From positions 1-64,000 of the forward strand of contig JADZCT010000037.1 in the NCBI GenBank assembly GCA_020851455.1: a DNA stretch of 64,000 nt, in the 5' to 3' direction. The translations under genes and the position numbers were made by a program. The notes beneath the pieces are model-generated. The model had not been told where the DNA came from. It saw only the letters and a program-made list of their open reading frames with translations, and did no database searches. Source of the DNA: Gemmatimonadaceae bacterium (GTDB lineage: Bacteria; Gemmatimonadota; Gemmatimonadetes; Gemmatimonadales; Gemmatimonadaceae). Below, piece by piece: positions 10,753 to 63,413 of the stretch (position 1 is its first letter; each line of letters begins with the position of its first letter).

Positions 10753-11949
10753 CTACTGCACCGCGTTGATCATGTCGAAGATCGGCAGGTACATGGCGAC
10801 GACCATGCCGCCAACGACCACGCCGAGGAACACGATCATGACCGGCTCGAGCAGCGAGAGCAGGTTGCCCACGGCGGCGTCCACTTCCTCGTCGTAGAAG
10901 TCGGCGATCTTCGACAGCATCTCGTCGAGTCCGCCGGTCTGCTCGCCGACGGCGATCATCGAGATCACCATTGGCGGGAAGACGTTGGACTTCGCCAGCG
11001 GGGCGGCGATAGTGTCGCCGCCTGCGATTGACGACCGGCTCGACATGATCGCGTCCTGGATGACGCGGTTGCCGGCTGTCTTGGCGGTGATCTCGAGCCC
11101 GTCGAGGATGCTCACGCCGGAGCTGATGAGCGTGCCAAGCGTGCGCGTGAAACGGCTGACGGCCGACTTGCGGAGCACGTCGCCGAGCACGGGGAACGCG
11201 AGCATGGCCTTGTCCACGGCAAGCCGGCCCTTGGGCGTGGCGTAGTATCGCTTGAAGAACTGGAATCCGAAGAAGCCGCCGCCGATGATGGCCCACCAGT
11301 ATCCCTTCAGGAACTCCGAGAGCCCGATCACGATGCGGGTCGGGAGCGGGAGGGCGAGGTTCACGCTCGCGAACATGCTCTGGAAGACGGGGATCACGAA
11401 GATGAGCAGCACGGTGACCGCGATCGCCGCGACGCTGAAGATGACGCCAGGGTAGATCATGGCGCCTTTCACTTTGCGCACGAGGGCGTCGTTCTTTTCC
11501 ATGAACGTCGCGAGCCGCATGAGGATCGTGTCGAGGATGCCGCCGGCTTCGCCGGCGGCGACCATGTTCACGTACAGGTCGCTGAACGCTTTTGGGTGCC
11601 TGCCGAGCGCGTCGGCCACCGTGTGGCCCGATTCGACGTCGAAAACGACCTGGCGCGTGACGGCCGCGAGCGCCTTGTTCTCGGTCTGCTTGGAGAGGAT
11701 GTCGAGGGCCTGCACGAGCGGAAGGCCGGAGTTGATCATCGTCGAGAACTGGCGGGTGAAGATCACGATGTCGCGCATCGCGATCGAGCCGCCGGTCTTC
11801 TGCTTCGCCTTGGCCGCCTCCTCGACCTTGACGACGTTGAGCCGCAGCTTGCGGAGCTGCGCAACCACGTCCTGGCGGTTGGCCGCCTCGATCGTGTCGG
11901 ACTTGAGGGCGCCCTTCGCGTCGCGGGCGGTGTACGTAAAGGTGGCCAT
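10753..11949 (-). CDS. pilC: Type IV pilus inner-membrane platform protein PilC (GspF family)
   Basis: This 398-residue protein has two GspF domains (about 70-190 and 270-395), each with SGLPLVQALD or SGVSILDGLE-type starts and transmembrane helices (for example around 170-190, 222-240 and 370-392). PilC is the membrane platform on which the PilB and PilT ATPases work. The N-terminus (FTYTARDAKGALKSDTI) is the usual one for the family. It lies last in a pilB-pilT-pilC unit, 69 bases after pilT. Confidence 0.95.
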   Translation of the reverse strand: MATFTYTARDAKGALKSDTIEAANRQDVVAQLRKLRLNVVKVEEAAKAKQKTGGSIAMRDIVIFTRQFSTMINSGLPLVQALDILSKQTENKALAAVTRQVVFDVESGHTVADALGRHPKAFSDLYVNMVAAGEAGGILDTILMRLATFMEKNDALVRKVKGAMIYPGVIFSVAAIAVTVLLIFVIPVFQSMFASVNLALPLPTRIVIGLSEFLKGYWWAIIGGGFFGFQFFKRYYATPKGRLAVDKAMLAFPVLGDVLRKSAVSRFTRTLGTLISSGVSILDGLEITAKTAGNRVIQDAIMSSRSSIAGGDTIAAPLAKSNVFPPMVISMIAVGEQTGGLDEMLSKIADFYDEEVDAAVGNLLSLLEPVMIVFLGVVVGGMVVAMYLPIFDMINAVQ

Positions 11950-12018: not shown

Positions 12019-13155
12019 TTACCGCCGTCCCGGGGCCTCCCGGGCACCGGTCTCTTCCTGCGGCGTCTTGCCGATCATCCGCAGGAACTCGTTCGGGTCA
12101 CCCGAGACGCGGAGGCATTCCTCCTCGTCAACCTCGCGCGCCATGTACAGCTGGTAGAGCGCATCGTTCAGCGTCTGCATCCCGTGCTTCTTGCCCGACT
12201 GCATCGCCGAGTAGATCTGGTGGATCTTGTCGTCGCGGATCATCGCGCGGATTGCGGGCGTCACGACGAGGATCTCGGCGGCCATCGCGCGGCCCTTGCC
12301 GCCCTTCTTCTGCACCAGCGTCTGCGTGACGATCCCCTCGAGCACGAAGGCGAGCTGCGCGCGGACCTGCGACTGCTGGTGGCTGGGGAAGACGTCAATG
12401 ATACGGTTGATGGACTCGGCCGCGGAGTTCGTGTGCAGCGTCGCGAAGGCGAGGTGGCCCGTCTCGGCGATCGTGAGGCCCGCGTGGATCGTCTCGTGGT
12501 CGCGCATTTCGCCCACGAGCACCACGTCGGGATCCTGGCGCAACGCGTACTTGAGGGCGGCATCGAACGACTTCGTGTCGGTGCCCACCTCGCGCTGGTT
12601 GATGATGCAGTTCTGGTGCTTGTGAATGAACTCGATCGGGTCTTCCACGGTGATGATGTGGCCCTTCCACTCGCGGTTGATCTTGTCAATCATCGCGGCG
12701 AGGGTCGTGGACTTGCCGGAGCCCGTGGGCCCGGTGACGAGCACCAGCCCGCGCGGCTTCTCGGCCATCCTGGTGATCGCCGGCGGGAGCCGGAGCTGGT
12801 CGGCGGTCTTGATGGTGATCGGGATCTGCCGCATCACCATCGAGACGCAGCCGCGTTGCTTGAAACAGTTACCGCGGAAGCGGGCGAGGTTCTGGATGCC
12901 GAACGAGAAGTCGAGCTCGTCCTCCATCTCGAAGCGCTTCTTCTGCTGCTCCGTGAGCACCGAGTAGGCCACCTGCAGGGTGTCCTTGGGCGACAGCACG
13001 TACGTGTTCCTTGACGACGTGATATCGCCGTCAACCCGGAGCTTCGCGCACTCGCCTGCGGTGATATGGAGGTCGGAAGCGCCGCGCTCGATCATCTCCT
13101 CGAGGAGGGCGCGGAGGTTGACACCTTGCAGGGGAGCAGTGGCGGGGGCGGTCAA
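12019..13155 (-). CDS. pilT: Type IV pilus retraction ATPase PilT
   Basis: This 378-residue hexameric ATPase drives pilus retraction (twitching, DNA uptake). It shows Walker A GPTGSGKSTT, Asp box TVEDPIEF, Walker B region GEMRDHETI, His box TGHLAFATLHTNSA and the PilT-specific AIRAMIRDDK. The longest open start is a TTG at 13155; no convincing ribosome binding site decides it, and the first ATG comes 20 codons later inside the conserved ERGASDLHI region, so the TTG is preferred. It follows pilB by 42 bases. Confidence 0.95.
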   Translation of the reverse strand: MTAPATAPLQGVNLRALLEEMIERGASDLHITAGECAKLRVDGDITSSRNTYVLSPKDTLQVAYSVLTEQQKKRFEMEDELDFSFGIQNLARFRGNCFKQRGCVSMVMRQIPITIKTADQLRLPPAITRMAEKPRGLVLVTGPTGSGKSTTLAAMIDKINREWKGHIITVEDPIEFIHKHQNCIINQREVGTDTKSFDAALKYALRQDPDVVLVGEMRDHETIHAGLTIAETGHLAFATLHTNSAAESINRIIDVFPSHQQSQVRAQLAFVLEGIVTQTLVQKKGGKGRAMAAEILVVTPAIRAMIRDDKIHQIYSAMQSGKKHGMQTLNDALYQLYMAREVDEEECLRVSGDPNEFLRMIGKTPQEETGAREAPGRR

Positions 13156-13197: not shown

Positions 13198-15030
13198 CTA
13201 TACTGACGTCTCGCGAAGTACCTGCTCGAGCGGCACGACACCCTTGAGGATCTTGAGCCAGCCGTCCATGCGAAGGGTGAGCATGCCGCCTTCGATCGCC
13301 GAGTCGCGAATCTCGGCTGCGCCAACGTTCTGCAGGATGAGCTTGCGCAAGATCGGTGTCATGAACATGACCTCGTAGAGCCCCTGGCGCCCCTTGGTGC
13401 CCGTGCCGCCGCACTGGTCGCAGCCGGCACCTTTGAAGAACGGCAGTTCGCCAATCGTGGTCTTGAGCGACAGCTTCTCGAGGTACGGGACGGCGTCCTT
13501 GTGGGCCTTGGCCCTGGCGTTGTACAGGGCTTCCTCGGTGAAGCGCAGCTCGCCGAGCGTGGTGCCGCGCTTGACCTTGGCCTGCTCGAGCTCGAGGTCG
13601 TCGGGCTCGTACTTGACCTTGCAGTTCCCGCAGATGCGGCGCACGAGGCGCTGGGCCAGCACGAGGTTGAGCGCCGAGCTCACGTTGAAGGGTTCGAGCC
13701 CCATGTCGAGGAGGCGGGTGACCGTCTCGGCGGCGGAGTTGGTGTGCAGCGTCGAGAGCACCATGTGGCCCGTGAGGGCCGCCTTGATGGCGATGCCGCC
13801 CGTCTCGAGGTCGCGGATCTCGCCCACCATGATGATGTTCGGATCCTGGCGGAGGAACGCCTTGAGCGCCGCCGCGAACGTCATCCCGATCTCGTTGCGC
13901 ACGAGCACCTGGTTGATGCCGAAGATGTTGTACTCGACGGGGTCTTCGGCCGTCATGATGTTCGTGTCTATGCTGTTCACCTTCGACAGCGCCGAGTAGA
14001 GCGTGGTCGTCTTGCCCGAGCCGGTGGGGCCCGTGACGAGCACCATGCCGTACGGGTTGGTGACCGCCTCCATCAGCTCCTTCTCGGCGCGCGTCTCGAT
14101 GCCGAACTTCTCGAGGTCGAGCGTGAGGTTGTCCTTGTTCAGGATCCGGAGGACGATCTTCTCGCCAAAGAGCGTGGGCAGCGTCGAAACGCGGTAATCA
14201 ATGACCTTCTTGCCCATCTTGAGCTTGATGCGACCGTCCTGCGGCACGCGGCGCTCGGCGATGTTCAGCTGCGAGAGGATCTTGAAGCGCGAGACCAGCG
14301 CCGCCTGCATCTTCTTGGGCGGCTTCATGATCTCCGACAGGGCGCCGTCAATGCGGTAGCGCACGCGGAGGTCGTGCTCGAAGCACTCGAAGTGGATGTC
14401 GGAGGCGCCCCGCTTCACGGCGTCGGTGAGAATACCGTTGATGAGCTTCACCACCGGGGCGTCGTCAACAGCGGCGGCGAGCGCCGCGGCCGACATCTCC
14501 TCTTCCTTGTCCTCGACCGCCTCGACTTCCTCACCTTCGCCGGCCTCGATCTCCTCGAGCAGCGCCGACATCTGCAGGTCGGTGTTCGATTCGTAGTTCT
14601 TCTCGATCGCGTTGCGAAGCGTGAACTCGCCCGCGAGCACGGGCTGGATGTCGTAGCGCGTGATGAACTTCAGGTCCTCGATCGCCGCGAAGTTCGTCGG
14701 GTCGGCCATGGCGACGGTGAGCGTGCGCCCGTCGCGCTTGAGGGGGAGGACGAGGTTCTTGGTCGCGAGGTCGGCCGGAATCAGCTTCACCAGCTTCGGG
14801 TCGGGCTCGAACTTGGAGAGATCCACCGCGGGCATCTTGGACTGCCGCGCGAGAACCTTCACCAGCTCGAGTTCCTGGATGAAGCCGAGCTTGATCAGGT
14901 TGTAGCCCACGCGCGTGCCGTTGGCGCGCTGCTCCTGCAGGGCCTTGTCCAGTTGCTCCTTCGTGATCAGCCCCTCCTTCACGAGGAGGTCGCCGATCCG
15001 TGCGCTCGAGCTTGTGGATGGTGCAGCCAT
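13198..15030 (-). CDS. pilB: Type IV pilus extension ATPase PilB with MshEN domain
   Basis: This 610-residue GspE/PilB ATPase powers pilus assembly. The N-terminal MshEN domain (about 10-165) begins RIGDLLVKEGL and reaches LxxALQEQ, the pattern of c-di-GMP-binding MshEN repeats. The C-terminal ATPase has Walker A GPTGSGKTTT, TAEDPVEY, GEIRDLETG and the His box STLHTNSA, then a four-cysteine zinc site (CGNC ... CDQC). An acidic stretch of Glu and Ala residues near 180-200 separates the domains. The start is the ATG before AAPSTSSS, 17 codons inside the longest frame, because it puts the MshEN domain at the usual distance. Confidence 0.95.
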   Translation of the reverse strand: MAAPSTSSSARIGDLLVKEGLITKEQLDKALQEQRANGTRVGYNLIKLGFIQELELVKVLARQSKMPAVDLSKFEPDPKLVKLIPADLATKNLVLPLKRDGRTLTVAMADPTNFAAIEDLKFITRYDIQPVLAGEFTLRNAIEKNYESNTDLQMSALLEEIEAGEGEEVEAVEDKEEEMSAAALAAAVDDAPVVKLINGILTDAVKRGASDIHFECFEHDLRVRYRIDGALSEIMKPPKKMQAALVSRFKILSQLNIAERRVPQDGRIKLKMGKKVIDYRVSTLPTLFGEKIVLRILNKDNLTLDLEKFGIETRAEKELMEAVTNPYGMVLVTGPTGSGKTTTLYSALSKVNSIDTNIMTAEDPVEYNIFGINQVLVRNEIGMTFAAALKAFLRQDPNIIMVGEIRDLETGGIAIKAALTGHMVLSTLHTNSAAETVTRLLDMGLEPFNVSSALNLVLAQRLVRRICGNCKVKYEPDDLELEQAKVKRGTTLGELRFTEEALYNARAKAHKDAVPYLEKLSLKTTIGELPFFKGAGCDQCGGTGTKGRQGLYEVMFMTPILRKLILQNVGAAEIRDSAIEGGMLTLRMDGWLKILKGVVPLEQVLRETSV

Positions 15031-15142
15031 CGCTCCGCCTGGATGGGGCGCGCCGCGGCCCGGAACGCCGGTGGGCCGCAACTATAGAGGAAAGGGGACG
15101 TCCGAACCTGAAATGTGAAGGTGGCCGCCCGCTTCCAGCGTG

Positions 15143-15676
15143 TCAAGATGACTTGCGGCGGCGTGAGATCTTGGGGAACTGGATGATGACGGGGGGCGCC
15201 GACAGGGGGCGCGAGAACGTTACGTGGGGCTCCACGCGGGCGGCGAGCGCCGGGCCTACCCCTTTGACGCGTCTGAGGCCCGCGAGCGACCCGAATGGCC
15301 CGCGCAGCCGGCGCTCCTCGACGATGCGCGCCGCGAGCACCGGTCCGATCCCCGGGACAGTCTCGATCTCGGCGGCGCCGGCCACGTCGAGATCCACTGG
15401 TCCGCGCGGCGGGGCAGGCGTACGCGGCGCCCTGTCAGGACCAGCCGGACCAGGCGTCGCGCGCGGCGACTGCCGGCCCGTGCGCCTGCGCGCCGCGGCT
15501 GCCAGCGTGGCCGCCGATGTCGCAGAGTCAACCGCGGCGATCTGGCGGGCGAGGGCAGCTACGCCGGCGGTGTCGGCGGTCCGTTCGCGGCCGGCCCGCA
15601 ACCCCCGCGCCCCGGCCCCAAGGGCCGCGACGGCGGCCAGGAATAGCAATGCCTTGCGTTCGGCTTGCGTCGCCAT
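15143..15676 (-). CDS. ComEA-like helix-hairpin-helix protein
   Basis: This 177-residue protein has a short hydrophobic N-terminal segment (about 9-25), a long Ala/Arg/Pro-rich low-complexity linker and a C-terminal pair of helix-hairpin-helix motifs (TVPGIGPVLAARIV and RVKGVGPALAARV, about 107-145). ComEA proteins bind double-stranded DNA at the membrane during natural transformation. Only 112 bases separate it from pilB, so it may belong to the pilus/DNA-uptake unit. The linker is longer than usual, and the tail ends in a basic Lys/Arg cluster. Confidence 0.8.
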   Translation of the reverse strand: MATQAERKALLFLAAVAALGAGARGLRAGRERTADTAGVAALARQIAAVDSATSAATLAAAARRRTGRQSPRATPGPAGPDRAPRTPAPPRGPVDLDVAGAAEIETVPGIGPVLAARIVEERRLRGPFGSLAGLRRVKGVGPALAARVEPHVTFSRPLSAPPVIIQFPKISRRRKSS

Positions 15677-15774: not shown

Positions 15775-16806
15775 TCAGCGCAGCAGGGCCATCGCCACGT
15801 CACCCACCACCTGGAGCGACTTGGCGCTCACCCTCGAGAGGTCGTCGCCCATCGTGTGGTGCGCGTCGTAGTCGAGGTCAATCACGTCAATCACCGGGAG
15901 CCCCGCCGCCAGCAGCGGGTAGTGGTCGTCGGTGATCGGGAACTGGCGCACGTTGGGCAGGAAGTACCGGTCATAGCCAAGCTCCTTTGCCTTGCTCCAC
16001 ACCCGCTGTACGACCGCGGGCGCCTGCTGTGCCGAGTACATCTCCTGCGGGATGTTCAGGTCGGCGTCGCCGATCATGTCCCAGAGCACGCCCCACTCCG
16101 GCCGGTAGCCGGGGCTGGGCAGGTGCGAGGCGAAGTAGGTGGAGCCGATGAGCACGTCCACGTCGGGCGGGCCGAAGGTTCCGTAGTCCTCGCCGTCCAC
16201 GAAGAGCAGGTCCACGCCAACGCCGGGCGGCACCTTCTTGAGCGCGTCGGCAACGGCGAGGAGCAGCCCCACGCCGCTGGCACCGTCGTTGGCGCCCGGG
16301 ATGGGCTTGTCGCGGTTGGCGGGGTCGGGGTCGGAATCGGCGTGCGGGCGCGTATCCCAGTGGGTCACGTAGAGGACGCGCTGCGCGGCGTCGGGCCTGA
16401 AGCGGGCGAGGATGTTTCGCATCGGGATCTGGCCGCCGCCGGCGAGCGTGTGCGTCCATCGCTGCTCGGTCACCGCGTCGGCCGTGCCCTTGAGCTTCGC
16501 GACGATCCAGTCGCCGGTCTTCTGCCAGCCGGGCGTACCGGGCACGCGCGGGCCGAAGGCGACCTGCTGACGCACGTAACTCATCGCGGAGTCGGAGTTG
16601 AACTCCTGGGCCGCGGGGCGGCCGCCCGGCGCGGCGGCGTCTCCGGCGGGTGAGCACGCGGCGGCCGCGAGCGCGCCGATGGCCGCCACGGCAGCCGCGC
16701 CGCGGGCCGCGGCGGAGAGTGCGCCAACGAACCCCATGGCGGAAGCCTGGGCGTGAACCCGGGTGCGCGGCAGCGGGCTGGCCCGCCGGATGGATGGTGC
16801 GGTCAT
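15775..16806 (-). CDS. M28-family lipoprotein resembling bacterial glutaminyl-peptide cyclotransferase
   Basis: The M28 fold is shown by THWDTRPHADSD, PIPGANDGASGV (Asp174), LLFVDGEDYG (Glu206) and a late HHTMGDD. The combination DTRP, GANDGASGV, DGEDYG and DDHYPLL matches the glutaminyl cyclases of Bacteroidota better than the aminopeptidases. Such enzymes turn an N-terminal Gln into pyroglutamate on exported proteins. A lipobox (AAAAC, Cys51) follows a hydrophobic stretch. The annotated ATG at 16806 overlaps the SprA-like stop by ATGA, but the ATG at 16737 would give a more normal lipoprotein signal of 27 residues. An aminopeptidase role cannot be excluded from sequence. Confidence 0.82.
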   Translation of the reverse strand: MTAPSIRRASPLPRTRVHAQASAMGFVGALSAAARGAAAVAAIGALAAAACSPAGDAAAPGGRPAAQEFNSDSAMSYVRQQVAFGPRVPGTPGWQKTGDWIVAKLKGTADAVTEQRWTHTLAGGGQIPMRNILARFRPDAAQRVLYVTHWDTRPHADSDPDPANRDKPIPGANDGASGVGLLLAVADALKKVPPGVGVDLLFVDGEDYGTFGPPDVDVLIGSTYFASHLPSPGYRPEWGVLWDMIGDADLNIPQEMYSAQQAPAVVQRVWSKAKELGYDRYFLPNVRQFPITDDHYPLLAAGLPVIDVIDLDYDAHHTMGDDLSRVSAKSLQVVGDVAMALLR

Positions 16807-19800
16807 CGCAATGCCCCCGCGAAGAACGATATCTGGAGCACCGCCGAGAGCACCACCTGCGAGAGCCGGCGGTTCAGGTTGTTGTCGTACGTGATGATCC
16901 GCGCCCCTTGCAGCGAGAACGTCAGATTGTCGGCGACGTCCGTGTCGGCATTGAAGCTAATCGCGTCGCGGCCGTTGTCCGCGAGCCGGCTGCGGAGCTG
17001 CGACGGCCCGGTAGCCGTCACCCAGCTGGTGGTAGCGGTACGCTGCCAGGCGAGCCGCGTGCGGAGGCCGCTCTTCAGTTCCCATTCCGGCGGCAGCCGG
17101 AAGGTGCGGGTGGCAGTGGCGCCGAGGTCGCGCGAGGTTGCGTCGGTGCGCGTGCCCGGGAGGGAGTCAATGCGCTGCGTGGTCGAGAACGACACGCTGG
17201 TGGTGAGCTGGCCGACGTCGTTCCATGCGAACGAGGCGCTGAGCGGATAGCTCAGCATGGTGGAGGTCCTGGTATCGAGCGGCGCGTCCGGGGCGCCAGG
17301 CAGGTAGCTGTGCTGCGACGTCGCGACGAAGCGCGCGCTGGTCGTCACGCTGGAGAGCACGCGCTCGAGGAGTCCCGGGCGGAGCGTGGCGCGGAGCGCG
17401 AGGTCGGGGAGCGTCACGAGGTCGCCGTTCACGACGAGCTCCGAGCGGTCGGGCCTGCGCAGCCAGTTACGCGCGGCAAGGCGTTGCGTACGCGCGTCGA
17501 GGACTATCCCGAACGGCAGCCGGAGCCCGGTGGCGATCGCGACCTGGGTGTTGCTGGTGGCCGTGGTTGCGAGAAAGCCATGGTCGCCGAGGAAGGTCCC
17601 TTCGCCGCCCCAGCCGAGCTGGAGGCCGAGCCCCGGGTCGCGCGGTGTGCCGTCGTAGGCGGACGAGATCGTCCGGGTCACAGAGAGTTCGACCGGCACG
17701 AGCGTGCGGTCGAGCCGTGCGAGCGTGGCGGAGTCGGCCACCCAGGCGCGCGCGGTGCGAGCGAGGTCAACCGCTATTGCGCCGTTCAAGGTCTGGGCCG
17801 CGTTCACGCGGCGGGGGAGCCGGAGGGCGCCCGTGGTATCGCCTTCCCTCAGCAGCACGCGCGTATTCGGGTCGCGCAGCAGGCCATAGCTGGTGCTCAT
17901 CCCCGCGCGCGGCCGCAGCCAGCCCTCGAGCCGCGGCGCCAGGGTGTACGTGGTGGTGAGCGCGCGTTCGCGCTCCAGCCCGGCGTCAATCCCCAGCACG
18001 GACGACCGTTCGGCGGTGGCAGCCGCGCCCGTGGCGGTGGAGTCGCCGTAGTGCACGAGGTCGCGCGTGCTCGCGAGCTCCCAGCGCGCGCTGAGGGCAT
18101 CGAACGGGCGGAGTTCGAAGGCGGTGCTGTTGCGCCATGCGTCCACGCGGCCGTTCACGACGCGGGCTGTGTCGCGCGGCGAGGCGGCGATGGCCTGGAA
18201 GCTGGATCTGCTCTCGTCCGATGACACGAGGTTTCCGCTTGCGCGAAACTCCGCGGGCTGCAGGCGCGGCTTTGCGTCGCGCAGCGCGCTGACGACCTCC
18301 GCCCCGGCGAGCCAGCCCGGGAGGTGCGAGAACGCGGCCGTCCACCAGCCGGGCATGCGACCCGCCGGCGACGCGCCGCCCACTGCGTAGTCAACGCCGG
18401 CCGTGACGCGCGACTCGTCGGCCACCTGGAACTCCGTGCGCGAGCCGGCACTCCCCGCGCCCACCGCCGCGCTCAGGTGGTTGACGATGGGCGCGAGCCA
18501 GCTTCCGGTCAGCGGTGTCGCGCGCCTGAGGGCGAGCGACACGCTCACGACGTTGCGCTCCGGCGAGCGCAGGCCGCGGATATCGGCGGCGCGAATGTCG
18601 GATTGCGACACGTATTGCGGCGCCGCGCGCGCGCGCGACACCGATGCGCTTAGCGGGAGCATCCACCCGCCGGCTCCACCGAGGAGCTGGTCGAGGCGCA
18701 GCGTGGCGCCAAGCTCCACCTGGTCGTCGGCCACGTACGACGGCGCTTCCGTGAGCTGCCGGAAGCTCGGGTCGCGGCGCGAGGCGGCGAAGCGGACCTG
18801 TGCGACGTCACCCATGTTGGCCTGCACCGCGAATTGGCCCGCGTACCCCGGCGTGTTCACCACGCCCGCGAGGCGGATGTCATCCACCCAGACCTCCAGC
18901 GTGTCGCCGGGCATGATCGGCGTCGTGCCGGCGCCTGTGGAATCCACGCGCACCATCCCGACGGCGAGTTCCTGGACGGCCGAGAGGTTCGGCGGGCTTA
19001 CGGCGGGGTCGGCGGCGTACACGATGTAGCCGTCGCCGCACGCCGCGTGGCGGCGGGAGACCTGGCCGACGCCGATCGCGCTGCGCTGGATGAGCGCGAG
19101 GTCCGCCCCGCTGCACGAGACGGAATCGGGCAGGTCGCGCAGGTACGCGTTCTCGAGCCGCGCGCGCAGTTCGTAGAGCTTGTCGAAGTTCACCCGCACC
19201 TCCGGGAGCCACGCGGCCTGCGTGGTACCCGTGTTCACCGGGGTGCGGTAGGCGTAGAAGTTGTCCACGTCGCGCCCGATCTTGACGTAGAACTGCAGCT
19301 CCCCGCGCTCGCCCCATCCGCTGCCGCGTCCGCGCGCCCAAGCCCTCAGTTCGCGGTACTGGCGGAAGTTCTGCGCGCCGGCGGGAAAGGTGTAAACCGC
19401 CTCGGCGCGCTCGAGCGGCGCAAGACGCGTGGCGGTGAGCCGCATGGATCTCTCGTTCACGACCACGGCCTGGTTCTCGAGCCCCGTGAGCCGGCGGTCG
19501 GCCTCGCTCACCACGCCCGGCGGCGACTGGTATCCCAGCACCGAGAGCGAGTCTTGCGTGCCCACCACGCCCGCGAAGACGAGGCCATTCCCTTCGCGCG
19601 CGCCGCCTATCCCCTGGATGGTGCGCTCGGAGCGCTTGAGCCATGCGGCGCCCGTGAAGCGGAGGCGCGCAATCACCGTCTGCGAGAACTCGTTGTCGGC
19701 CAGCCCTGCGCCCGAGACGACCGTGAGCCGCGCGGCGCGGACGCGAAGCGGCGACGGCCCGCCGCTGATCGTATCGGCCGGCGCGGAGAACGGGAGCCGC

Positions 19801-22800
19801 ACGAGCACCCAGCAGAGCTTCGGAGCAGCGGGACCGGCCGGATCGTTGGGCGCGAGCCGGCAGCCGCCAACGCGACTCCAGGCGGCAGGATCGGCAAGGT
19901 CGGCGACGTAGCGGAAGACGCGTTCCTGCTCGCGCTGCGACGCGAGGTAGTTCAGCACCCCGTCGCCGTCTATGTCCCATTCGTCCAGCCGTCCGTTCTG
20001 CACGGTGCAGTTGGTGCGCGTGTCGCCGAGCCGGGCGACCTGGACGTTGCCGCGGGAGCACATCGGGACGTTCGTCCTGATCCCGCCGCCCGCGGGCGAG
20101 CTGACGATAAGCCGCGGCACCACGTCGCCCACGAGGCCGACGTCGTTCGTGGCCTGGTTGAACGCGCGCGAGAAGGGGTCGCGCTCGGACTGCAGCGTGT
20201 CGCGCCCCACGACCGCCCGTCCGCTCCAGGTGGAGTCGGTGGCGGCGGTGCCGGACGAAACCGCGAGTTGCGTTGGCACGACCGCCACGGCGTCCTCGCT
20301 GACGTCGCCCAGGTCAATGACGATCGTCGGGTTGCGGCGCCTCCGCACGGCGCTCGTGTCAACGAGCGCCCAGAACTCAACGGCTTCCTTGCCGCTCAGG
20401 TTCACGCCGGACGGCGGGCCCAGCACGGTACGGATGGAGCGCCAGCGCCGGCCGGGCGTGGCGTTCCCGGTCCGCCAGCGGTAGGTCTTCGAGACGTCGT
20501 CGTACGCGCCGCCAACACTCAGGGGGTAGAGCGTAAGCCAGAGAGCCTGCTCGGGCGCCTGGAACGCCGCCCCTGCGAGCCGGGTGAGCGGGTCAATTTC
20601 CTGGAGCGTGAACCGCGGCACGGTGTCGCCGAGCGACCGGCCGTTCGTCTGCCAGGCGATCGTCGCCGCGCGGGCGAGATCGAGCGTGCCGGAGCCGCCG
20701 ATGCGGGAGGGGAGGACGCGCCCCAGCGCCGGCTGGCTCGATATCGCCCACGACGGGTCGGCGAGGGGCACCGCGAACGCGCCGTCCGACTCGAACGACT
20801 CGAGGTACGCCTGCCCCGACGACCCGGCCTGCGGAAGGCTCGCCGCGAGTTCCGCTTCGAGCCGGACGCGCGAGGGCGCAAGCTGTTCCGCTCCCGTGAT
20901 CCGGCGCGCCGCCCGGGCCAGGGCGGGCACGTCCCACGCGTACGACCCGCTCACGCCGGCGACGATCTCCGCTTCGTCGGCGTAGCCGAGCTGGGGGCGC
21001 GTGAACGACGAATGCTGGCGCTGGCCGATGGCCACGAAGTTGAGTTCGCCGTTGGCCAGCGCGTAGCGCGATGCTATGCCGACGATCGTGGTGGGCGTCG
21101 TGACGAAGAGCGGAGTCTCCTCGAAGCGCACCGTCACCTGGCGCGGGCGCGCGAACACAGAATCGGCGCGGAGCATCGTCACACGGCCCACGTCGTAGTC
21201 AATCTCGTAGTCCGTACCGCGGCGCAGCACGGTGCCGTCGTCGAGCACGAGCCGCTCCGACCGCGGGCGAAGCTGAGTCGCGCCGAGCGAGAACGACTGA
21301 GCGTCACCGCCCATGTCGCTCTCGAAGGAAAGGTTGAGCCGGTAAACCGGCTGCGGCCGGCGGGGCGAGTAGAGGTCCTCGCCGGGGGTCGTGTAGATCG
21401 TGTCGTTCGCGGGGTTCGGGAGGGAGCCCACGAGGCCCGACCGCGCGAACGGCCTCAGCGACGGCAGGATGACGAACCGCTCGCGCACCACTGACGACGT
21501 CGCCGAGCCGGAGAGCGAGGCAACCGGGTCACCACGGCGCGGGAAGACCCGCGCCTCCGGGTCGAAGAGCGCCGGCGCGCCGACGCGGGCCATCCGGAAG
21601 AGCTCGAGGAAGGTGGACGCGGTGCCGCCCAGGGGCCGCTCCTGCGCAAAGGTGCCGCCCGTGGTGATGGTGAGCTGGATGGACTCGCGCCGCACCTCCT
21701 CGCCGCCTACGCGGTAAGCGGCCCGCACTTCGCGGTAGGACGCCGGGTCGCCGGGTCGTACGTTCGGATCCCAGAGCAGCGTGGCCCACTGCTCGCGGCC
21801 CTCGGCCCACGCCACGTCCGGCGTGCCGCCGGTGGAAGCGACCACCGTATCGCGCCCGCCAACCCGCACGGTGTACGCAACGACGAGCCGGTCACGATTC
21901 GGGTCGAGCGGCTGCGCGAGCATCACCCAGAGCTGCGACGGGTCAACGTAGTAATCCACATTCTCCCGGAGCGCCTCGTACACCGGCCCCGGGCGGGACG
22001 CCGGGTCGCCGATCAGCCGGAAGCGCGGCCCGTTGGGGTTGACCGGCTGGCCGCCGATGAACTGCCGGTACAGGAATACGCGCGCGGGACGGACGCTGTC
22101 GGGGAGCTGGGCAGCGAGCTGGGCGAGCCGGGGACCGTCGAGAAGGTCAATGTTGGGGTAGCCCGCGAAGACGCGCGGGTCAACGGTGAGGAAGAACCGG
22201 CGCGCCTCCACCTGGTAGTCGTCAATCTTCAGCGAACCCGCCTGCGCGCCGGTTCCCCCCACGGTGAATACCCGGTCGCGCTGCACGATACCCTTCTGCT
22301 CCGCGGCAATCGCCTTGACGCCCAGCCGGCCGAACTGCGCCACAGCCTGCAGCCCGTAGTTGCCCTGCGGAATACCGCTCGTGATGAATCGCGAGGCGGG
22401 GACGTCGAGCGTCACGTTGCCCACGTCAACCCGGCGCAGCCATTCACCCTCCTGCCCGAGATACGAGAGGGAGATGGTGTTCGAGCCGTCGAACTCGCGC
22501 CGCGAGTCGTAGTTCACGTCGGTGCGGATCCGGTCGGCGATGGTGCCCCCGGTCTGCAGGCCGAACTGGAAGTCGGGCGTGAACTCCCACCGCGGCACGC
22601 ACTGCGAGCCGAAGACCAGGAGTTGGCTCGCCACGCAGCGCTCGTTGTTCGTGCGCTCGTTGCGGAACTCGAAGCGTCCGTCGAAGCGGAGTCCCAGGTC
22701 GCTTCCCGGCCCGAAGAGACGAGTGAAGAGCGAGTCTGTCGCGGTGGTGTCGCGGCGCTGAGCAGTGTCGCGGGGAGTGCGCGCCGGGTCGGCTCCGCCC

Positions 22801-22910
22801 TGAAGGGCCTCGGCCGCGTTTGCCGCAACGCAGGCGGCGAGCATGGCAGCGAGGGGGAAGCGGAGGTATCGCACGAAGGGGCGCACCCGGGCCCGGGAAC
22901 GGGGTATCAA
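16803..22910 (-). CDS. SprA/Sov-like giant outer-membrane protein
   Basis: This 2035-residue exported protein resembles SprA, the very large beta-barrel translocon of the type IX secretion system, which is about 2400 residues in Bacteroidota. SprA-like segments recur in order: YGLQAVAQFGRLGVKAIAAE then RRFFLTV (about 180-245), DYEIDYDVGRVTML (about 565-580), YLESFESDGAF (about 700), DEWDIDGDGVLNYL (about 980), GELQFYVKIGRDVDNFYAY (about 1210), EVWVDDIRLAGV then GDVAQVRFAASRRDPSF (about 1340-1390), and a strand-rich C-terminus. The longest start is TTG at 22910; GTG at 22886 and ATG at 22844 also precede or lie in the signal peptide, so the exact N-terminus is open. The M28 gene follows with an ATGA overlap. 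No PorV- or GldK-N-like gene lies in this window. Confidence 0.82.
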   Translation of the reverse strand: MIPRSRARVRPFVRYLRFPLAAMLAACVAANAAEALQGGADPARTPRDTAQRRDTTATDSLFTRLFGPGSDLGLRFDGRFEFRNERTNNERCVASQLLVFGSQCVPRWEFTPDFQFGLQTGGTIADRIRTDVNYDSRREFDGSNTISLSYLGQEGEWLRRVDVGNVTLDVPASRFITSGIPQGNYGLQAVAQFGRLGVKAIAAEQKGIVQRDRVFTVGGTGAQAGSLKIDDYQVEARRFFLTVDPRVFAGYPNIDLLDGPRLAQLAAQLPDSVRPARVFLYRQFIGGQPVNPNGPRFRLIGDPASRPGPVYEALRENVDYYVDPSQLWVMLAQPLDPNRDRLVVAYTVRVGGRDTVVASTGGTPDVAWAEGREQWATLLWDPNVRPGDPASYREVRAAYRVGGEEVRRESIQLTITTGGTFAQERPLGGTASTFLELFRMARVGAPALFDPEARVFPRRGDPVASLSGSATSSVVRERFVILPSLRPFARSGLVGSLPNPANDTIYTTPGEDLYSPRRPQPVYRLNLSFESDMGGDAQSFSLGATQLRPRSERLVLDDGTVLRRGTDYEIDYDVGRVTMLRADSVFARPRQVTVRFEETPLFVTTPTTIVGIASRYALANGELNFVAIGQRQHSSFTRPQLGYADEAEIVAGVSGSYAWDVPALARAARRITGAEQLAPSRVRLEAELAASLPQAGSSGQAYLESFESDGAFAVPLADPSWAISSQPALGRVLPSRIGGSGTLDLARAATIAWQTNGRSLGDTVPRFTLQEIDPLTRLAGAAFQAPEQALWLTLYPLSVGGAYDDVSKTYRWRTGNATPGRRWRSIRTVLGPPSGVNLSGKEAVEFWALVDTSAVRRRRNPTIVIDLGDVSEDAVAVVPTQLAVSSGTAATDSTWSGRAVVGRDTLQSERDPFSRAFNQATNDVGLVGDVVPRLIVSSPAGGGIRTNVPMCSRGNVQVARLGDTRTNCTVQNGRLDEWDIDGDGVLNYLASQREQERVFRYVADLADPAAWSRVGGCRLAPNDPAGPAAPKLCWVLVRLPFSAPADTISGGPSPLRVRAARLTVVSGAGLADNEFSQTVIARLRFTGAAWLKRSERTIQGIGGAREGNGLVFAGVVGTQDSLSVLGYQSPPGVVSEADRRLTGLENQAVVVNERSMRLTATRLAPLERAEAVYTFPAGAQNFRQYRELRAWARGRGSGWGERGELQFYVKIGRDVDNFYAYRTPVNTGTTQAAWLPEVRVNFDKLYELRARLENAYLRDLPDSVSCSGADLALIQRSAIGVGQVSRRHAACGDGYIVYAADPAVSPPNLSAVQELAVGMVRVDSTGAGTTPIMPGDTLEVWVDDIRLAGVVNTPGYAGQFAVQANMGDVAQVRFAASRRDPSFRQLTEAPSYVADDQVELGATLRLDQLLGGAGGWMLPLSASVSRARAAPQYVSQSDIRAADIRGLRSPERNVVSVSLALRRATPLTGSWLAPIVNHLSAAVGAGSAGSRTEFQVADESRVTAGVDYAVGGASPAGRMPGWWTAAFSHLPGWLAGAEVVSALRDAKPRLQPAEFRASGNLVSSDESRSSFQAIAASPRDTARVVNGRVDAWRNSTAFELRPFDALSARWELASTRDLVHYGDSTATGAAATAERSSVLGIDAGLERERALTTTYTLAPRLEGWLRPRAGMSTSYGLLRDPNTRVLLREGDTTGALRLPRRVNAAQTLNGAIAVDLARTARAWVADSATLARLDRTLVPVELSVTRTISSAYDGTPRDPGLGLQLGWGGEGTFLGDHGFLATTATSNTQVAIATGLRLPFGIVLDARTQRLAARNWLRRPDRSELVVNGDLVTLPDLALRATLRPGLLERVLSSVTTSARFVATSQHSYLPGAPDAPLDTRTSTMLSYPLSASFAWNDVGQLTTSVSFSTTQRIDSLPGTRTDATSRDLGATATRTFRLPPEWELKSGLRTRLAWQRTATTSWVTATGPSQLRSRLADNGRDAISFNADTDVADNLTFSLQGARIITYDNNLNRRLSQVVLSAVLQISFFAGALR

Positions 22911-23017: not shown

Positions 23018-24721
23018 GTGAAAGTCATCAGCCGCTACGTCCTGCGGGAACACCTTGGGCCGCTCGTCTTCTCGATGTCGGCGCTGACTTCGCTGCTGCT
23101 CCTCAACTATATCGCCAAGCAGCTCCCGCAGCTCGTGGGCAAGGGGCTCCCGTGGACTGTGATCGCGGAGTTCATCGTCCTGGCGATGCCGTTCACGATC
23201 GCGATGACGCTTCCCATGGCGGTGCTCGTCGCGACGCTGCACGCCTTCAGCCGCCTTGCCGCCGACAGCGAGATCACCGCGTTCAAGGCCAGCGGGCTCC
23301 CGATGTCGCGGCTCATGCGCCCAGTGGTGATTGCGGGGTTCCTGCTCTCGGTGATGATGGTGTGGTTCAACGACCGCATCATGCCGGCCGCCAACTACGA
23401 GCTGCAGACGCTGATGAACGACATCGCCCGGAAGAAGCCGACGTTCGCGCTCAAGCCCCAGGTGATCAACGAGGTCGCGCCGGGCCGGCTCTTCCTGCGA
23501 GCCGGCCACCTGTCGAGCGGATCCGGCGACCTGAAGGACGTGACGATCTACGACTTCTCCGATGCGTCGCGCCGGCGCACGATCCGGGCCGACTCCGGGA
23601 CGCTCGCGCTCTCGCCCGACAGCCGCGACCTCCTGCTCACGCTGTACGATGGCGACGTCGTGGAACTGAACCGCGCGGAGATGAGTCAGCTCCAGCGCGT
23701 GTTCTTCACCACCAACGACGTGCGCGTGCGGGGAATCGGCAACCAGCTCGAGCGGAACGGTTCGGTCGCGGAGAAGAGCGATCGCGAACGGACGGTCTGC
23801 GAGCTCCAGGCGCAGCTCCAGATGGCGATGCAGCGGCGCGACAGCGTGCGCGCGGCGCTCGCGAGGATAGACGCCGCGGCGGCCGCGCAGTTCGGGGGTG
23901 GCGGGACGACCGCGGGGAGCGGGTCCGCGTACTGCCGCATGATCAACTGGTTCCGGTCGTGGGGCGACGGCGCGGCGGGCACGGCGGTGGTGGCGAAGCC
24001 AACTGACCCAGGGGTGATGCCCGTGGAGTCGGCGCAGCCGCGGGAGGTGGCCGCTGCTGTTCCGGAGAGCGCCGCCCGGCACCTCAAGCCTGCGCCCATG
24101 ATCGCCCAGGACACGGCGGGGAGCGGTGCCAGGCACGATTCTGCCGCAGCCTCCGCAACCGCGGGGCACGATTCGGCCGCGGCAGCCCCTCCGAGCGCAG
24201 GAAACGATACGGCTGCGGCCACGCCTGTTGCGCGGGACGCTCTCCCGGCGCCTTCGAGCGGCGCAGCGGCCGGCGACGAGATACAGACGCCGGCGCCGGT
24301 CCTCGCCGAGGCGATGAAGATCCAGCTCAACTCGACGCAGGGGCTGATACTCGGCAACCAGGTCGAGATCGAGAAGAAGTTCGCGATCGCCACGGCGTGC
24401 CTCATCTTCGCGCTGCTTGGCGCACCCATCGCCTTCAGGTTCCCCAGGGGAGGCATTGGCCTCACCATCGGCGTGAGTCTTGGTGTCTTTGGCGTGTACT
24501 ACTGCGGGCTGCTCGCCGGCGAGGAACTGGCAAGGCGGGGCTACATGCCCGCGTACGCCGCGATGTGGGGCACCAACTTCCTGCTGCTGGCGGCCGGCGT
24601 ATACCTCACCGCCCGGCTGGGCTCCGAAGGCACCACGCACCGCGGGAGCGAACTCTCCGACCGTCTCGCCCGGCTCCGCGACAGGTTCCGGCGCCGACCC
24701 CGTCACGCGTTGGGGGGCTGA
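23018..24721 (+). CDS. lptF: LptF/LptG-family LPS export permease with long periplasmic insertion
   Basis: This inner-membrane permease belongs to the YjgP/YjgQ family, which with LptB extracts lipopolysaccharide. The N-terminal helices (YVLREHLGPLVFSMSALTSL) and the coupling segment EITAFKASGLPMSRLMRP are typical, and the C-terminal helices start after QVEIEKKFAIATA. It has 567 residues, against about 360 for the family: residues 246-430 are an insertion holding a short coiled-coil-like Gln/Arg/Ala stretch, two cysteines and Ala/Pro-rich tandem repeats. The start is the GTG at 23018; the frame is open upstream but the extension does not look coding. It is the first of four tightly packed genes. 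Which of the pair is LptF and which is LptG is assigned by order only. Confidence 0.88.
   Translation: MKVISRYVLREHLGPLVFSMSALTSLLLLNYIAKQLPQLVGKGLPWTVIAEFIVLAMPFTIAMTLPMAVLVATLHAFSRLAADSEITAFKASGLPMSRLMRPVVIAGFLLSVMMVWFNDRIMPAANYELQTLMNDIARKKPTFALKPQVINEVAPGRLFLRAGHLSSGSGDLKDVTIYDFSDASRRRTIRADSGTLALSPDSRDLLLTLYDGDVVELNRAEMSQLQRVFFTTNDVRVRGIGNQLERNGSVAEKSDRERTVCELQAQLQMAMQRRDSVRAALARIDAAAAAQFGGGGTTAGSGSAYCRMINWFRSWGDGAAGTAVVAKPTDPGVMPVESAQPREVAAAVPESAARHLKPAPMIAQDTAGSGARHDSAAASATAGHDSAAAAPPSAGNDTAAATPVARDALPAPSSGAAAGDEIQTPAPVLAEAMKIQLNSTQGLILGNQVEIEKKFAIATACLIFALLGAPIAFRFPRGGIGLTIGVSLGVFGVYYCGLLAGEELARRGYMPAYAAMWGTNFLLLAAGVYLTARLGSEGTTHRGSELSDRLARLRDRFRRRPRHALGG
24134..24229 (+). repeat. Three degenerate tandem repeats in the lptF insertion
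   Basis: Three copies of a unit of about 33-36 bases encode H/N-D-S/T-A-A-A followed by Ala/Pro/Ser-rich residues, starting at codons 373, 384 and 396. The array lies in the low-complexity insertion of the LptF-like protein. Confidence 0.6.
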
Positions 24722-24726
24722 CTCCC

Positions 24727-25812
24727 GTGCAGCTTCGCCTCCATCCGCTGGACCGGTACGTCCTCCGCGAGTTCACCAAGATCTTCGCGTCGGCTGCGCT
24801 TGGCTTTCCGGTGCTCGTCATCGTGCTCGACGTAGTCGAGAACTTCGGCAAGTACATCCGCCGCGAGCTGCCGCCGCTCGACATCGTCAAGGCGTACGTG
24901 TACGGAATGCCCGAGACGATGTTCCTCGTGCTCCCGGCAGCCGTGCTGTTTGCGACGGTCTTCTCGATAGGCGGCTTCACGCGGCACTCGGAGATCACGG
25001 CCGCGAAGGCCAGCGGGATCAGCTTCCACCGGTTCATCGTCCCGATTGCGTTCGGCTCCCTGGCGGCCACGGCGCTTGGCCTGGCGCTGGCGGCAGCGAT
25101 GCCCGACGCGAACCGGATGCGCGACCAGCTTCTCCAGGAGCGGAAGTCCCGCAACCTGGACTTCAGAGCCAGCTTCACCTTCGCAAGCGAGGACGCCCGG
25201 GTGTACCAGATCGGCCAGGCCGACGCGGTCCAGGGCACCCTCGACGACGTCGAGATCGAGCGGCGCGGCACCGGGCCCGCGTACCCGTCGTACGTGATCT
25301 ATGCGAGGAGCGCGCGGCACACTGATGACCGCGGCTGGACGCTCAAGCAAGGCGTGATGCACCTCATGCCCACCGACTCGGCGACGATGGCGGTTGCCTT
25401 CGACTCGCTGCGCGACCGCGGGTTCAGGGAATCGCCGCGCGTCCTCATGGCCGACCCGCGCGCGCCCGAGGAGATGGGCTTCCGCGACCTCGGCGTGTTC
25501 ATTCGGCAGATGGAGCGCTCGGGCACCGATGTAAACAAGTTCCGCACCGCGAGGATGCTCAAGCTGGCCATCCCGGCCACGTGCGTGATCATCATGCTGT
25601 TTGGCGCTCCGCTCGCCACGACCACGCAGCGCGGCGGCCCCGCGCTCGGGGTCGGCATCAGCCTGGCCACCACTGTGGTGTTCCTGATGCTCGTGCAGCT
25701 CACGCTCGCCATCGGAGAGAAGGGCCTGGTAATGCCGGAACTTGCAGCGTGGATCCCGGGCGCCGTGTTTGGCGGGCTCGGGGCAATCCTCCTCGCGAGA
25801 GCCCGCACGTGA
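24727..25812 (+). CDS. lptG: LptF/LptG-family LPS export permease
   Basis: This second YjgP/YjgQ permease has 361 residues, the usual length. It begins LRLHPLDRYVLREFTKIF and has the coupling segment SEITAAKASGISFHRFIVP, a periplasmic beta domain (about 135-255) and C-terminal helices after KLAIPATCVI. With the preceding gene it should form the LptFG heterodimer. The start is the GTG at 24727, five bases after the lptF stop. Its own stop overlaps the mlaE start by GTGA. Confidence 0.9.
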   Translation: MQLRLHPLDRYVLREFTKIFASAALGFPVLVIVLDVVENFGKYIRRELPPLDIVKAYVYGMPETMFLVLPAAVLFATVFSIGGFTRHSEITAAKASGISFHRFIVPIAFGSLAATALGLALAAAMPDANRMRDQLLQERKSRNLDFRASFTFASEDARVYQIGQADAVQGTLDDVEIERRGTGPAYPSYVIYARSARHTDDRGWTLKQGVMHLMPTDSATMAVAFDSLRDRGFRESPRVLMADPRAPEEMGFRDLGVFIRQMERSGTDVNKFRTARMLKLAIPATCVIIMLFGAPLATTTQRGGPALGVGISLATTVVFLMLVQLTLAIGEKGLVMPELAAWIPGAVFGGLGAILLARART

Positions 25813-26678
25813 CGGTGCCCGTGCCGCAGCATGAAGGCGCTCCGGAGCCGGAGCGCCGGGAACACACCCACTCGTTCCCGGTGGTGCAACGGGTCCCGCT
25901 GCGCTTCCTGCGCCGCATGAGCCGGGGCACCTTCGGCTTCTTCGGCGGGTTCGGCGCCCGCGTGCTCTTCGTGCGCGAGCTTCGGCGCGCTCTCCGCGAG
26001 CCCAGGACGTACGCGCCGCTCATCATCAGGCAGATGCGCACGATCGGGGTGGATTCGGTGCCGCTCGTTGCCATGGTCGCGGCCTTCATCGGCGCGGTGA
26101 TCGCGATCCAGGTGCGGTACCAGCTCTTCCCGGGCATCCAGCTTTCCATCGTCGGCCTGTCGTCGCGCCAGATCACGGTCCTCGAGACCGGGCCGCTGCT
26201 CACGGGCCTCGTGCTCGCTGGCCGCATCGGCGCGAAGATGACGGCCGAGATCGGGACGATGCGCGTCACCGAGCAGATAGACGCGCTCGAAACCCTGGCG
26301 TACGACCCCGTGGCGTACCTCGTGGTGCCACGCCTGATCGCCGCCGTGGTGATGCTTCCCCTGCTCACGCTGATGGCCGACTTCATTGGCGTGGTGTCGG
26401 GCGCGCTGGCCGCGGTGCTCGTCGGCGGCGTGCAGCTCACGCAGTTCGTGGACGGCGTACGGCTTGGCTACGACCACTTCCAGGTGATCTACAGTCTCAT
26501 CAAGGCCACGCTCTTTGGAGCCGCGATTGCGTACCTCTGCACCTACGAGGGGTACGTGACGCAGGCGGGCGCCGAAGGCGTGGGACGTTCCACCGCCAAA
26601 GCGGTGGTGATCTCGTCCATCTGGATTCTCGTGCTCGATGCCGCCATCGCGTTCATCCTCGCACCATATTTGCAATGA
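25809..26678 (+). CDS. mlaE: MlaE-family lipid ABC transporter permease
   Basis: This 289-residue permease of the Mla/Mce lipid transport family moves phospholipids between the membranes. It shows MLVALE-family landmarks such as FIGAVIAIQ, ETGPLLTGLVLAGRIGAKMTAEIGTMRVTEQIDAL and YDPVAYLVVPR, with about five or six transmembrane helices and an unusually polar 45-residue N-terminus. The GTG at 25809 overlaps the lptG stop; GTGs two and four codons later are alternatives. mlaD follows with an ATGA overlap. No ATPase (MlaF) gene lies between them, unlike the common mlaF-mlaE-mlaD order. Confidence 0.92.
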   Translation: MTVPVPQHEGAPEPERREHTHSFPVVQRVPLRFLRRMSRGTFGFFGGFGARVLFVRELRRALREPRTYAPLIIRQMRTIGVDSVPLVAMVAAFIGAVIAIQVRYQLFPGIQLSIVGLSSRQITVLETGPLLTGLVLAGRIGAKMTAEIGTMRVTEQIDALETLAYDPVAYLVVPRLIAAVVMLPLLTLMADFIGVVSGALAAVLVGGVQLTQFVDGVRLGYDHFQVIYSLIKATLFGAAIAYLCTYEGYVTQAGAEGVGRSTAKAVVISSIWILVLDAAIAFILAPYLQ

Positions 26679-27559
26679 TGAAACGTCGCGACGAAGTGCT
26701 CGTCGGCCTGTTCGCCACCGTCGCCCTGATCCTTGGCTTCATGGGCGCGCTCTGGCTCGCGCGCGGCGGCCTGGCGCCCGGGTACCCGCTCTACGCGAAG
26801 TTCGTGTGGGGCGCAGGGCTCAAGCAGGGCCAGCCCGTGCTCCTCGCGGGCATCAACGTTGGCTACGTGGACGAGGTCACGCTCCAGCGCGACGGAATGC
26901 TGGTCGTCACCTTCCGTGTGCGCAACGACTACAAGGTGCCCAAGGGCACCACGGCCACGATCGAACCCAACGGTTTCTTTGGCGACATGCTCGTGGCGCT
27001 GAGGCCGTCGCTGCCGTCGCCCGACAATTTCGCCCCGGGCGACACCATCCCGCCGGGGCGCGCCTCGCCCAGCGTCGGCGACGTGCTCACCCGGGTGGAC
27101 ACGCTGGCGGGCCACCTCACCGCGCTCGCGGGCGCGCTCCGCAAGCAGGTGGTGGACGAGCACGCGCTCGACGACGTCCGCCGGGCGGTCGTCCGGGCCG
27201 GAGCCATGTTCGCGTCCATCGAGAAGCTCGCGGCCGACCAGGACGAGGAACTCCGGAAGACGGAAGCGTCGCTGCGGCGGGCGGCGAGCGCGCTCGACTC
27301 CACCCAGATTGACTCGACGCTGCGGAGCATCCGCGGCGCGGGATACGCGGCCGACTCTCTCGCGGCGGCGTTCCGGACCACGGCGGGCCGGCTCGACACG
27401 CTCCTGGACAAGCTGAGCAACGGGCCAGGCTCGGCCTCACGCCTCGTGAACGACCGCGCGATGTACGACGATGTGCGCTCGCTCGTCCAGCGGATGGACT
27501 CGCTGCTCACGGAGTTCCAGAAGAACCCGCGCAGGTTCTTCAAGTTCTCGATATTCTGA
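26675..27559 (+). CDS. mlaD: MlaD-family MCE-domain lipid-binding protein
   Basis: This 294-residue protein has one N-terminal transmembrane helix (about 8-30) and an MCE domain (about 38-118; GAGLKQGQPVLLAGINVGYV). A long C-terminal part predicted to be helical follows (about 135-285) and ends in a basic, aromatic tail (RRFFKFSIF). MCE proteins form periplasmic hexamers that hand lipids to MlaE-type permeases. The start overlaps the mlaE stop by ATGA; a second methionine follows at once. It is the last gene of the lptF-lptG-mlaE-mlaD unit. Confidence 0.9.
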   Translation: MMKRRDEVLVGLFATVALILGFMGALWLARGGLAPGYPLYAKFVWGAGLKQGQPVLLAGINVGYVDEVTLQRDGMLVVTFRVRNDYKVPKGTTATIEPNGFFGDMLVALRPSLPSPDNFAPGDTIPPGRASPSVGDVLTRVDTLAGHLTALAGALRKQVVDEHALDDVRRAVVRAGAMFASIEKLAADQDEELRKTEASLRRAASALDSTQIDSTLRSIRGAGYAADSLAAAFRTTAGRLDTLLDKLSNGPGSASRLVNDRAMYDDVRSLVQRMDSLLTEFQKNPRRFFKFSIF

Positions 27560-30961: not shown

Positions 30962-31014
30962 ACCTTTGCCTCGAAATGAGGAGTGAGGGTGCTGCATGCA
31001 TTCTGCAGTCCCGA

Positions 31015-31044
31015 AAAATACGAACGCGGAATCGCCGCACGCAA
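31015..31044 (-). promoter_or_regulatory. Candidate sigma70-like promoter of the TonB-dependent receptor gene
   Basis: On the minus strand TTGCGT (31044-31039) and TATTTT (31020-31015) are separated by 18 bases. Transcription would begin near 31008, leaving a leader of about 47 bases before the ATG at 30961. The A/T run stands out from the GC-rich surroundings. Confidence 0.4.
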
Positions 31045-31160
31045 CGCACCGGAATCGGGCGTGACGCGCCCGAACCTGCCGGGGTAATTGACAACACGCC
31101 GGCGTCCACCCCCGACGGCGTGCATGGCCGGGCGTTCGTGACACCGGCGCAGATGGTTGG

Positions 31161-63299: not shown

Positions 63300-63413
63300 A
63301 TGGATGGCCTGAGGTTGAGGAAGGCGGCCAACGACGGTGCACCAATATGTTGGCTCCCGGGGCCGGCGCAATGCCGATACCAGGGCCAGTGGCCCCCCGT
63401 GGCTCTCGGCGTA

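Follow-up and report, generated by a model that had tools for sequence, protein, structure and literature searches.

A conserved sprA–glutaminyl cyclase operon in Gemmatimonadota that probably serves two separable envelope functions

Organization and conservation of the sprA–qc locus

The soil bacteria considered here belong to the phylum Gemmatimonadota. The analyzed window covers 64 kb from the start of a 144-kb contig in a Gemmatimonadaceae genome (2.96 Mb, 97% complete, 4% contamination). On its reverse strand lies sprA (16803..22910), which encodes a 2035-aa member of the outer-membrane translocon family of the type IX secretion system (T9SS), followed by qc (15775..16806), which encodes a 343-aa lipoprotein that we assign to the type II (animal-type) glutaminyl cyclases (QCs). 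As a preliminary description of this DNA had noted, the two genes share an ATGA stop-start overlap (16803..16806, reverse strand), the ATG of qc overlapping the TGA of sprA (...GCGATGACC...). In 18 of 41 SprA–QC pairs from several families, a start codon is available that would produce this 4-nt overlap, so the overlap is not due to chance. The description had also considered what a coupled pair outside Bacteroidota would mean. In a scan of named genomes with the QC alignment, the QC finds its best named relatives on Gemmatimonadaceae and Gemmatimonadetes contigs, mostly at 55–62% identity; since the host belongs to Gemmatimonadota, the pair does lie outside Bacteroidota. The coupling is both real and old.

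Downstream of qc, also on the reverse strand, are a gene for a ComEA-like helix-hairpin-helix protein (15143..15676; PF12836, E 1.8e-13) and three ORFs that we take to be pilB-like (type IV pilus/T2SS ATPase, 13198..15081), pilT-like (ATPase, 12019..13155) and pilC-like (inner-membrane protein, 10753..11949). Divergent from sprA, the forward strand carries lptF (23018..24721; PF03739, 257.7 bits), whose start we set at the codon before KVISRY in an ORF that opens at 22820, and lptG (24397..25812; PF03739, 220.8 bits, with the family match from about 24748). These are followed by genes for an mlaE-like lipid permease (25581..26678; PF02405) and an mlaD/MCE protein (26675..27559; PF02470), both conserved in place within family f1. 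The PF02405 match begins at amino acid 148 of the mlaE-like ORF, and the true start of this gene is probably further in.

We followed this gene order by tblastn of the window genes on 40 regions and on individually named loci. The arrangement of lptG-lptF and divergent sprA-qc-comEA-pilB-pilT-pilC recurs in families f1, f2, f3 and f9, and parts of it were found within shorter stretches in f4 and f8, making six families in all. Divergent lptF-sprA is also present in f11, where QC is encoded on another contig than SprA, and in KSB1. Outside the phylum, the sprA-qc pair occurs on a KSB1 contig (L266, with divergent lptF-lptG; SprA score 792 bits), a Calditrichota contig (L256, 806 bits) and a contig from an unplaced bacterium (L277, 356 bits). 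At six loci (L220, L221, L222, L232, L234 and L257), qc comes directly after lptF, and tblastn detected no SprA homologue between the two.

The large protein belongs to the SprA family

In a family-model search, the 2035-aa protein scored 585.9 bits against TIGR04189 (surface_SprA; curated cut-off 200), aligning to profile positions 126-308 and 376-1815 of 2319, and it matches the solved SprA of F. johnsoniae (6h3i) with an E of 1.8e-24. The gene first described as SprA-like thus encodes SprA over most of the model. The protein resembles the T9SS SprA of F. johnsoniae and P. gingivalis at the level of an equivalog family match, but its gene differs in that qc and pilus genes share its operon.

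SprA homologues were found in 91 of 119 Gemmatimonadota genera, and in 106 of the 150 Gemmatimonadota genomes that we used for all presence/absence tables. The SprA of G019, presumably Gemmatimonas aurantiaca T-27, reaches 1251 bits against TIGR04189, well above its congeners, and so may be a seed sequence of that model. SprA in this phylum is therefore not new in itself, and a 2024 paper counts Gemmatimonadota among the phyla that may have a T9SS (PMC11285876).

The M28 protein is a type II glutaminyl cyclase

The preliminary description had likened the 343-aa M28-family protein (PF04389) to glutaminyl cyclases, and sequence, tree, fold and active-site residues agree that it is a QC and not an aminopeptidase. 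Among solved structures, bacterial QCs are its closest sequence relatives (E about 1e-60), with the P. gingivalis QC the best (6qql, E 3.3e-60) and the aminopeptidase YwaD matching more weakly (E 2.4e-8). For an AlphaFold model built with 21 homologues as input (pLDDT 96), every one of the top 50 PDB folds (Foldseek and VIA) was a QC or a re-annotated relative of one (TM 0.94, Z 43.9), and 6qql aligned to the model at 1.3 Å over 276 residues. We also built the tree with QCs and aminopeptidases that had been suggested for this protein. The protein groups with the QCs: all Gemmatimonadota sequences fall into a single clade (96/99) that lies among QCs from other phyla, and Gemmatimonadota M28 paralogues, one of them from the host genome, are placed far outside.

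The zinc ligands D149, D183 and H299 and the base Glu of bacterial QCs correspond to D174, D207, H317 and E206 in the window QC. These residues are invariant in 21 aligned sequences, and the D-G at the first ligand (NDG) is nearly so; by published criteria (PMC7948796), Asp-Gly in place of the Asp-Asn of aminopeptidases separates QCs from those enzymes. The protein carries a lipobox (...ALAAAAC) whose cysteine, on inspection of the alignment by eye, is present in essentially all homologues. It thus shares with the bacteroidal type II QCs (PgQC 6qql, TfQC 6qro and BtQC 7d1e; PMC7948796) the fold, 36–40% identity, the single-zinc ligands including the bacterial Asp, the D-G motif and the lipoprotein anchor. 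It differs from them in that its gene comes after sprA and in two tryptophans. W193 of the P. gingivalis QC, which has been linked to substrate binding, is replaced by V and is not conserved, and the W298 position holds H in family f1 and W in f2, f4, f8 and f9. Both tryptophans line the pocket and lie outside the zinc site that defines the family.

These substitutions, together with an annotation model (NF007568) that weakly names an aminopeptidase (27 bits of 298), speak for an aminopeptidase or an inactive QC relative whose position beside sprA is neutral. We regard this reading as very improbable: the D-G (not D-N) and, at the zinc site, the E-D are kept in all or nearly all of the 21 sequences. 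Sequence, tree and fold place the protein with QCs, and it is the host paralogue (L175:14727-15863), not the window QC, that matches leucyl aminopeptidases. Moreover, type II QC is exchanged for type I QC across genomes, as described below.

SprA co-occurs with a PorV-like protein

The window ORFs that were scanned against family models gave no other type IX component, in line with the earlier statement. We also searched genome-wide for PorV and GldM, as had been proposed. With a profile that we built from PorV relatives in the phylum, the host genome yielded a candidate PorV-like protein (E 3.9e-35) on which the Pfam model PF19572 is silent at 1e-3, and GldM gave no match in the host genome at E<=1 or, in a second search, at E<=0.1.

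Using the phylum profile at E<=1e-20, we found the PorV-like protein in 98 of 106 SprA-bearing genomes compared to 3 of 44 SprA-less ones (98/8/3/41, p=4e-25, 150 genomes). Because tests at genome level ignore shared ancestry, so that their p-values overstate the independence of related genomes, we repeated them by genus; the SprA–PorV association holds (p=6e-13), and within genera g1, g7 and g74 the two are lost together. As a check free of the home-built profile, the Pfam PorV model matched 31 genomes, all of them SprA-bearing and none SprA-less (p=9e-6). A SprA without any partner, as the window by itself would suggest, was rejected, as the phylum profile finds the PorV that Pfam misses in most genomes.

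The Gemmatimonadota SprA thus resembles the T9SS of F. johnsoniae and P. gingivalis in going with a PorV-like barrel, as in the SprA-PorV complex (PMC10994853), but differs in that the host genome has no GldM or PorU matches and no clear sorting tails. At E<=0.1, GldM was absent from all eight Gemmatimonadota genomes searched (the host, Gemmatimonas, G043 and five of f11) and from the KSB1 and Calditrichota genomes, with 4/4 Bacteroidota genomes as positive controls matching at E<1e-120. PorU (NF033707) gave no match in the host genome and exceeded the cut-off only in f11, and sorting tails (TIGR04183) are abundant only there; the best tail in the host belongs to an M14 carboxypeptidase (E 0.0068), with none at E 1e-3. 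The GldN model matched none of the 150 genomes and was equally silent on its positive controls.

As GldM and PorU were not found in the host genome, these profile searches point to a reduced SprA-PorV translocon and not a complete T9SS. Release of cargo-carrier complexes from the Bacteroidota channel depends on the motor (PMC10994853), so a motor-less SprA-PorV pair would be powered in another way, see little use or rely on a motor that the models used here do not recognize. It is unlikely, though worth weighing, that the system is instead a complete T9SS with a motor and a sortase that have diverged beyond the reach of these models: the PorV-like partner is present, the GldN model has no working control, and PorU, numerous tails and paralogues of PorV occur in f11, but the GldM model that finds all four Bacteroidota finds none of the eight Gemmatimonadota, nor KSB1 or Calditrichota.

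Family f11, a deep lineage, is itself a candidate for a motor-less or differently powered type IX system. Its genomes (G001, G003, G005, G007, G009 and G011; loci L033-L048, L092-L094 and L129-L130) encode SprA, PorU over the cut-off, at least 7–13 PorV relatives and 11–33 sorting tails per genome. GldM was absent from the five genomes searched, and the GldN model, for which no control rang, had no match.

The conserved divergent lptF-lptG and, in f1, mlaE-mlaD neighbors might suggest a SprA-like protein that has left secretion for a different role in the envelope, for instance in moving lipids or LPS. LptFG remain where SprA is undetected, however, and PorV goes with SprA, so we give this reading little credence.

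The M14 carboxypeptidase of the host (L131:4566-7475; G000:C85:59565-62474) has a C-terminus that resembles a type IX sorting tail (NGVYLVVARSG..RLKLFVARR). Its orthologues in the genus match TIGR04183 with E values of 3.6e-5 to 8e-4, and it has orthologues in other SprA-bearing genomes; on this resemblance it is a possible SprA cargo in the host genome. We also observed in f2-f4 a protein of about 1300 aa with a type IX-like tail, followed by PorV (L115:193-6796, L077:3082-6382, L122:4294-9210 and L123:3915-8870), with a GWxTD/PKD protein adjoining the pair in L115. This group lies on the sprA contig in several genomes, and in G036, G043, G044 and G050 PorV or a tail is on that contig within about 13–25 kb.

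Two cyclase types and glutamine after signal peptides

Type II QC is present in 107 of the 150 Gemmatimonadota genomes. The type I (plant-type, propeller) QC (PF05096) occurs in 33 of the 43 genomes that lack type II, compared to 14 of the 107 that have it (p=1e-13; p=5e-4 by genus), and 10 genomes have neither. The switch between the types is seen in families f1, f4, f5, f6 and f7, with type I standing in for type II in about a quarter of genomes (G019, G017, G042 and others). Since type I fills the gap in 33 of 43 genomes, the matches indicate that a QC of one of two unrelated types is near-universal in the phylum. Type I QC is predicted to catalyze the same reaction, but it has an unrelated propeller fold and was not seen beside sprA. 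Such exchange is expected if glutaminyl cyclization itself is under selection, and the same animal-type and plant-type lineages replace each other inside Bacteroidetes (PMC5837995).

Among putative secreted proteins, we tallied those in which [AVSTGIL]x[AGS]|Q occurs close to where the signal peptide ends. By this count, which uses a crude home-made predictor and a small sample, Gln follows the site in 118 of 214 pooled Gemmatimonadota proteins (55%) and 42 of 82 from Bacteroidota (51%), compared to 3 of 25 in E. coli (12%) and, as a second negative control, 6 of 21 on S. meliloti pSymB (29%). The same crude count by group gives 23/52 in the host's own genus, 24/37 in the SprA-less genus g2, 19/24 in Gemmatimonas and 22/32 in f2/f3. 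Compared to elsewhere, the odds of Gln after an AxA-like site come to 13 for the own genus, 9 for Bacteroidota and 2 for E. coli, and single-site cleavage prediction gave a similar picture with lower numbers. A first signal-peptide scan and an expectation-maximization version were discarded, as they misplaced cleavage sites; the latter gave 15% Gln in the Bacteroidota control. Examples from the host are PVVAHA|QAAPG, TTVA|QGVDI and ALASPASA|QSAAR. A TonB-dependent receptor with a carboxypeptidase-regulatory domain (window 27680-31219, reverse strand) has a signal peptide that seems to end GLA|QVTTG and fits this pattern.

The Q-rule, so far reported as typical of Bacteroidetes (PMC5837995, PMC10653852), thus apparently holds in Gemmatimonadota. 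As in Bacteroidetes, about half of the putative substrates carry Gln behind the signal peptidase I site (by the same crude count), and animal- and plant-type QCs replace each other; the difference is the phylum. The 2018 paper analyzed Bacteroidetes, Chlorobi, Spirochaetes, Chlamydiae and Cyanobacteria and found scattered high Q values elsewhere, with Ignavibacterium at 77% (PMC5837995); the main texts of PMC5837995 and PMC10653852 do not name Gemmatimonadota, and our literature search found nothing on pyroglutamate in a Gemmatimonad. We considered that loss of type II QC removes the Q-rule and rejected this, as genomes with type I QC, such as Gemmatimonas, keep it.

SprA and QC are distributed independently

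Across the 150 genomes, 76 have both SprA and type II QC, 30 only SprA, 31 only QC and 13 neither (p=1.0; by genus, also p=1.0). These presence data argue that the two functions are separable. The preliminary description had envisaged a type IX-like export pathway with built-in pyroglutamate capping; the identities of SprA and QC and their coupling stand, but a dedicated capped route does not fit such independence, and SprA co-occurs with the PorV-like protein instead of with QC. A literature search for SprA and glutaminyl cyclase together returned unrelated papers only.

In favor of a QC that is an accessory dedicated to the SprA pathway and caps cargo during export, the genes overlap in many families and the pair recurs in KSB1, Calditrichota and the unplaced bacterium; a special role of QC toward SprA or its cargo would make an overlap conserved over phylum-scale distances, and the pair in KSB1 and Calditrichota, easier to explain. 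We nevertheless hold such a role to be rather improbable. QC is kept in 31 of 44 SprA-less genomes and has been lost from 30 of 106 SprA-bearing ones, and it stays in place at loci where SprA was not detected; SprA-less g2 shows Gln at +1 no less often than other groups; f11, richest in sorting tails and PorU, has the two genes on different contigs; and mutants argue that pyroglutamate does not steer type IX secretion (Bochtler et al., PMC5837995).

A model of two envelope functions in one operon

We therefore favor, with good though not full confidence, an old translationally coupled operon for two envelope functions, with QC serving the exported proteome and SprA-PorV forming a reduced translocon. 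QC would be a membrane-anchored type II cyclase that faces the periplasm and, like the P. gingivalis QC, forms pyroglutamate on most Sec-exported proteins from the Gln that signal peptidase I uncovers. It would act on the exported proteome generally and not on SprA cargo alone, and pyroglutamate may protect these proteins from aminopeptidases. This half of the model rests on the family, fold and active-site residues of the enzyme, on the near-universal QC and on the Gln enrichment at +1. SprA would form the outer-membrane channel in a reduced type IX-like translocon, working with the PorV-like barrel protein as plug or cargo carrier and driven by another energy source or none. Its cargo would probably be a small number of proteins that end in a type IX-like domain, with the M14 carboxypeptidase of contig C85 as a candidate. 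This half rests on the identity of SprA, its near-obligate co-occurrence and co-loss with PorV, and the lack of GldM and PorU matches. The shared operon would coordinate expression of sprA and qc, neither gene needing the other.

A broader reading, which we offer tentatively and think somewhat less likely to hold than to fail, is that Gemmatimonadota cap their exported proteome by either cyclase and run a motor-less SprA-PorV, and that the sprA-qc operon is ancestral in the FCB group (Gemmatimonadota, KSB1 and Calditrichota). The Bacteroidota systems would have been dispersed from it later, type IX export and the Q-rule having begun linked.

These observations would extend the Q-rule from Bacteroidetes, for which it was described, to a second large phylum. 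They offer a natural experiment in which two unrelated cyclases replace each other and some genomes lack both. With SprA kept alongside PorV but without the known motor, comparison can also test what drives SprA or depends on it. The coincidence of type IX secretion with pyroglutamate, noted and dismissed in 2018, gains a physical gene link.

Elsewhere in the window, at 58694-61342 and 62334-63371 on the reverse strand, we noticed a weak beta-propeller (Rax2-like) protein near a CsgG-like protein.
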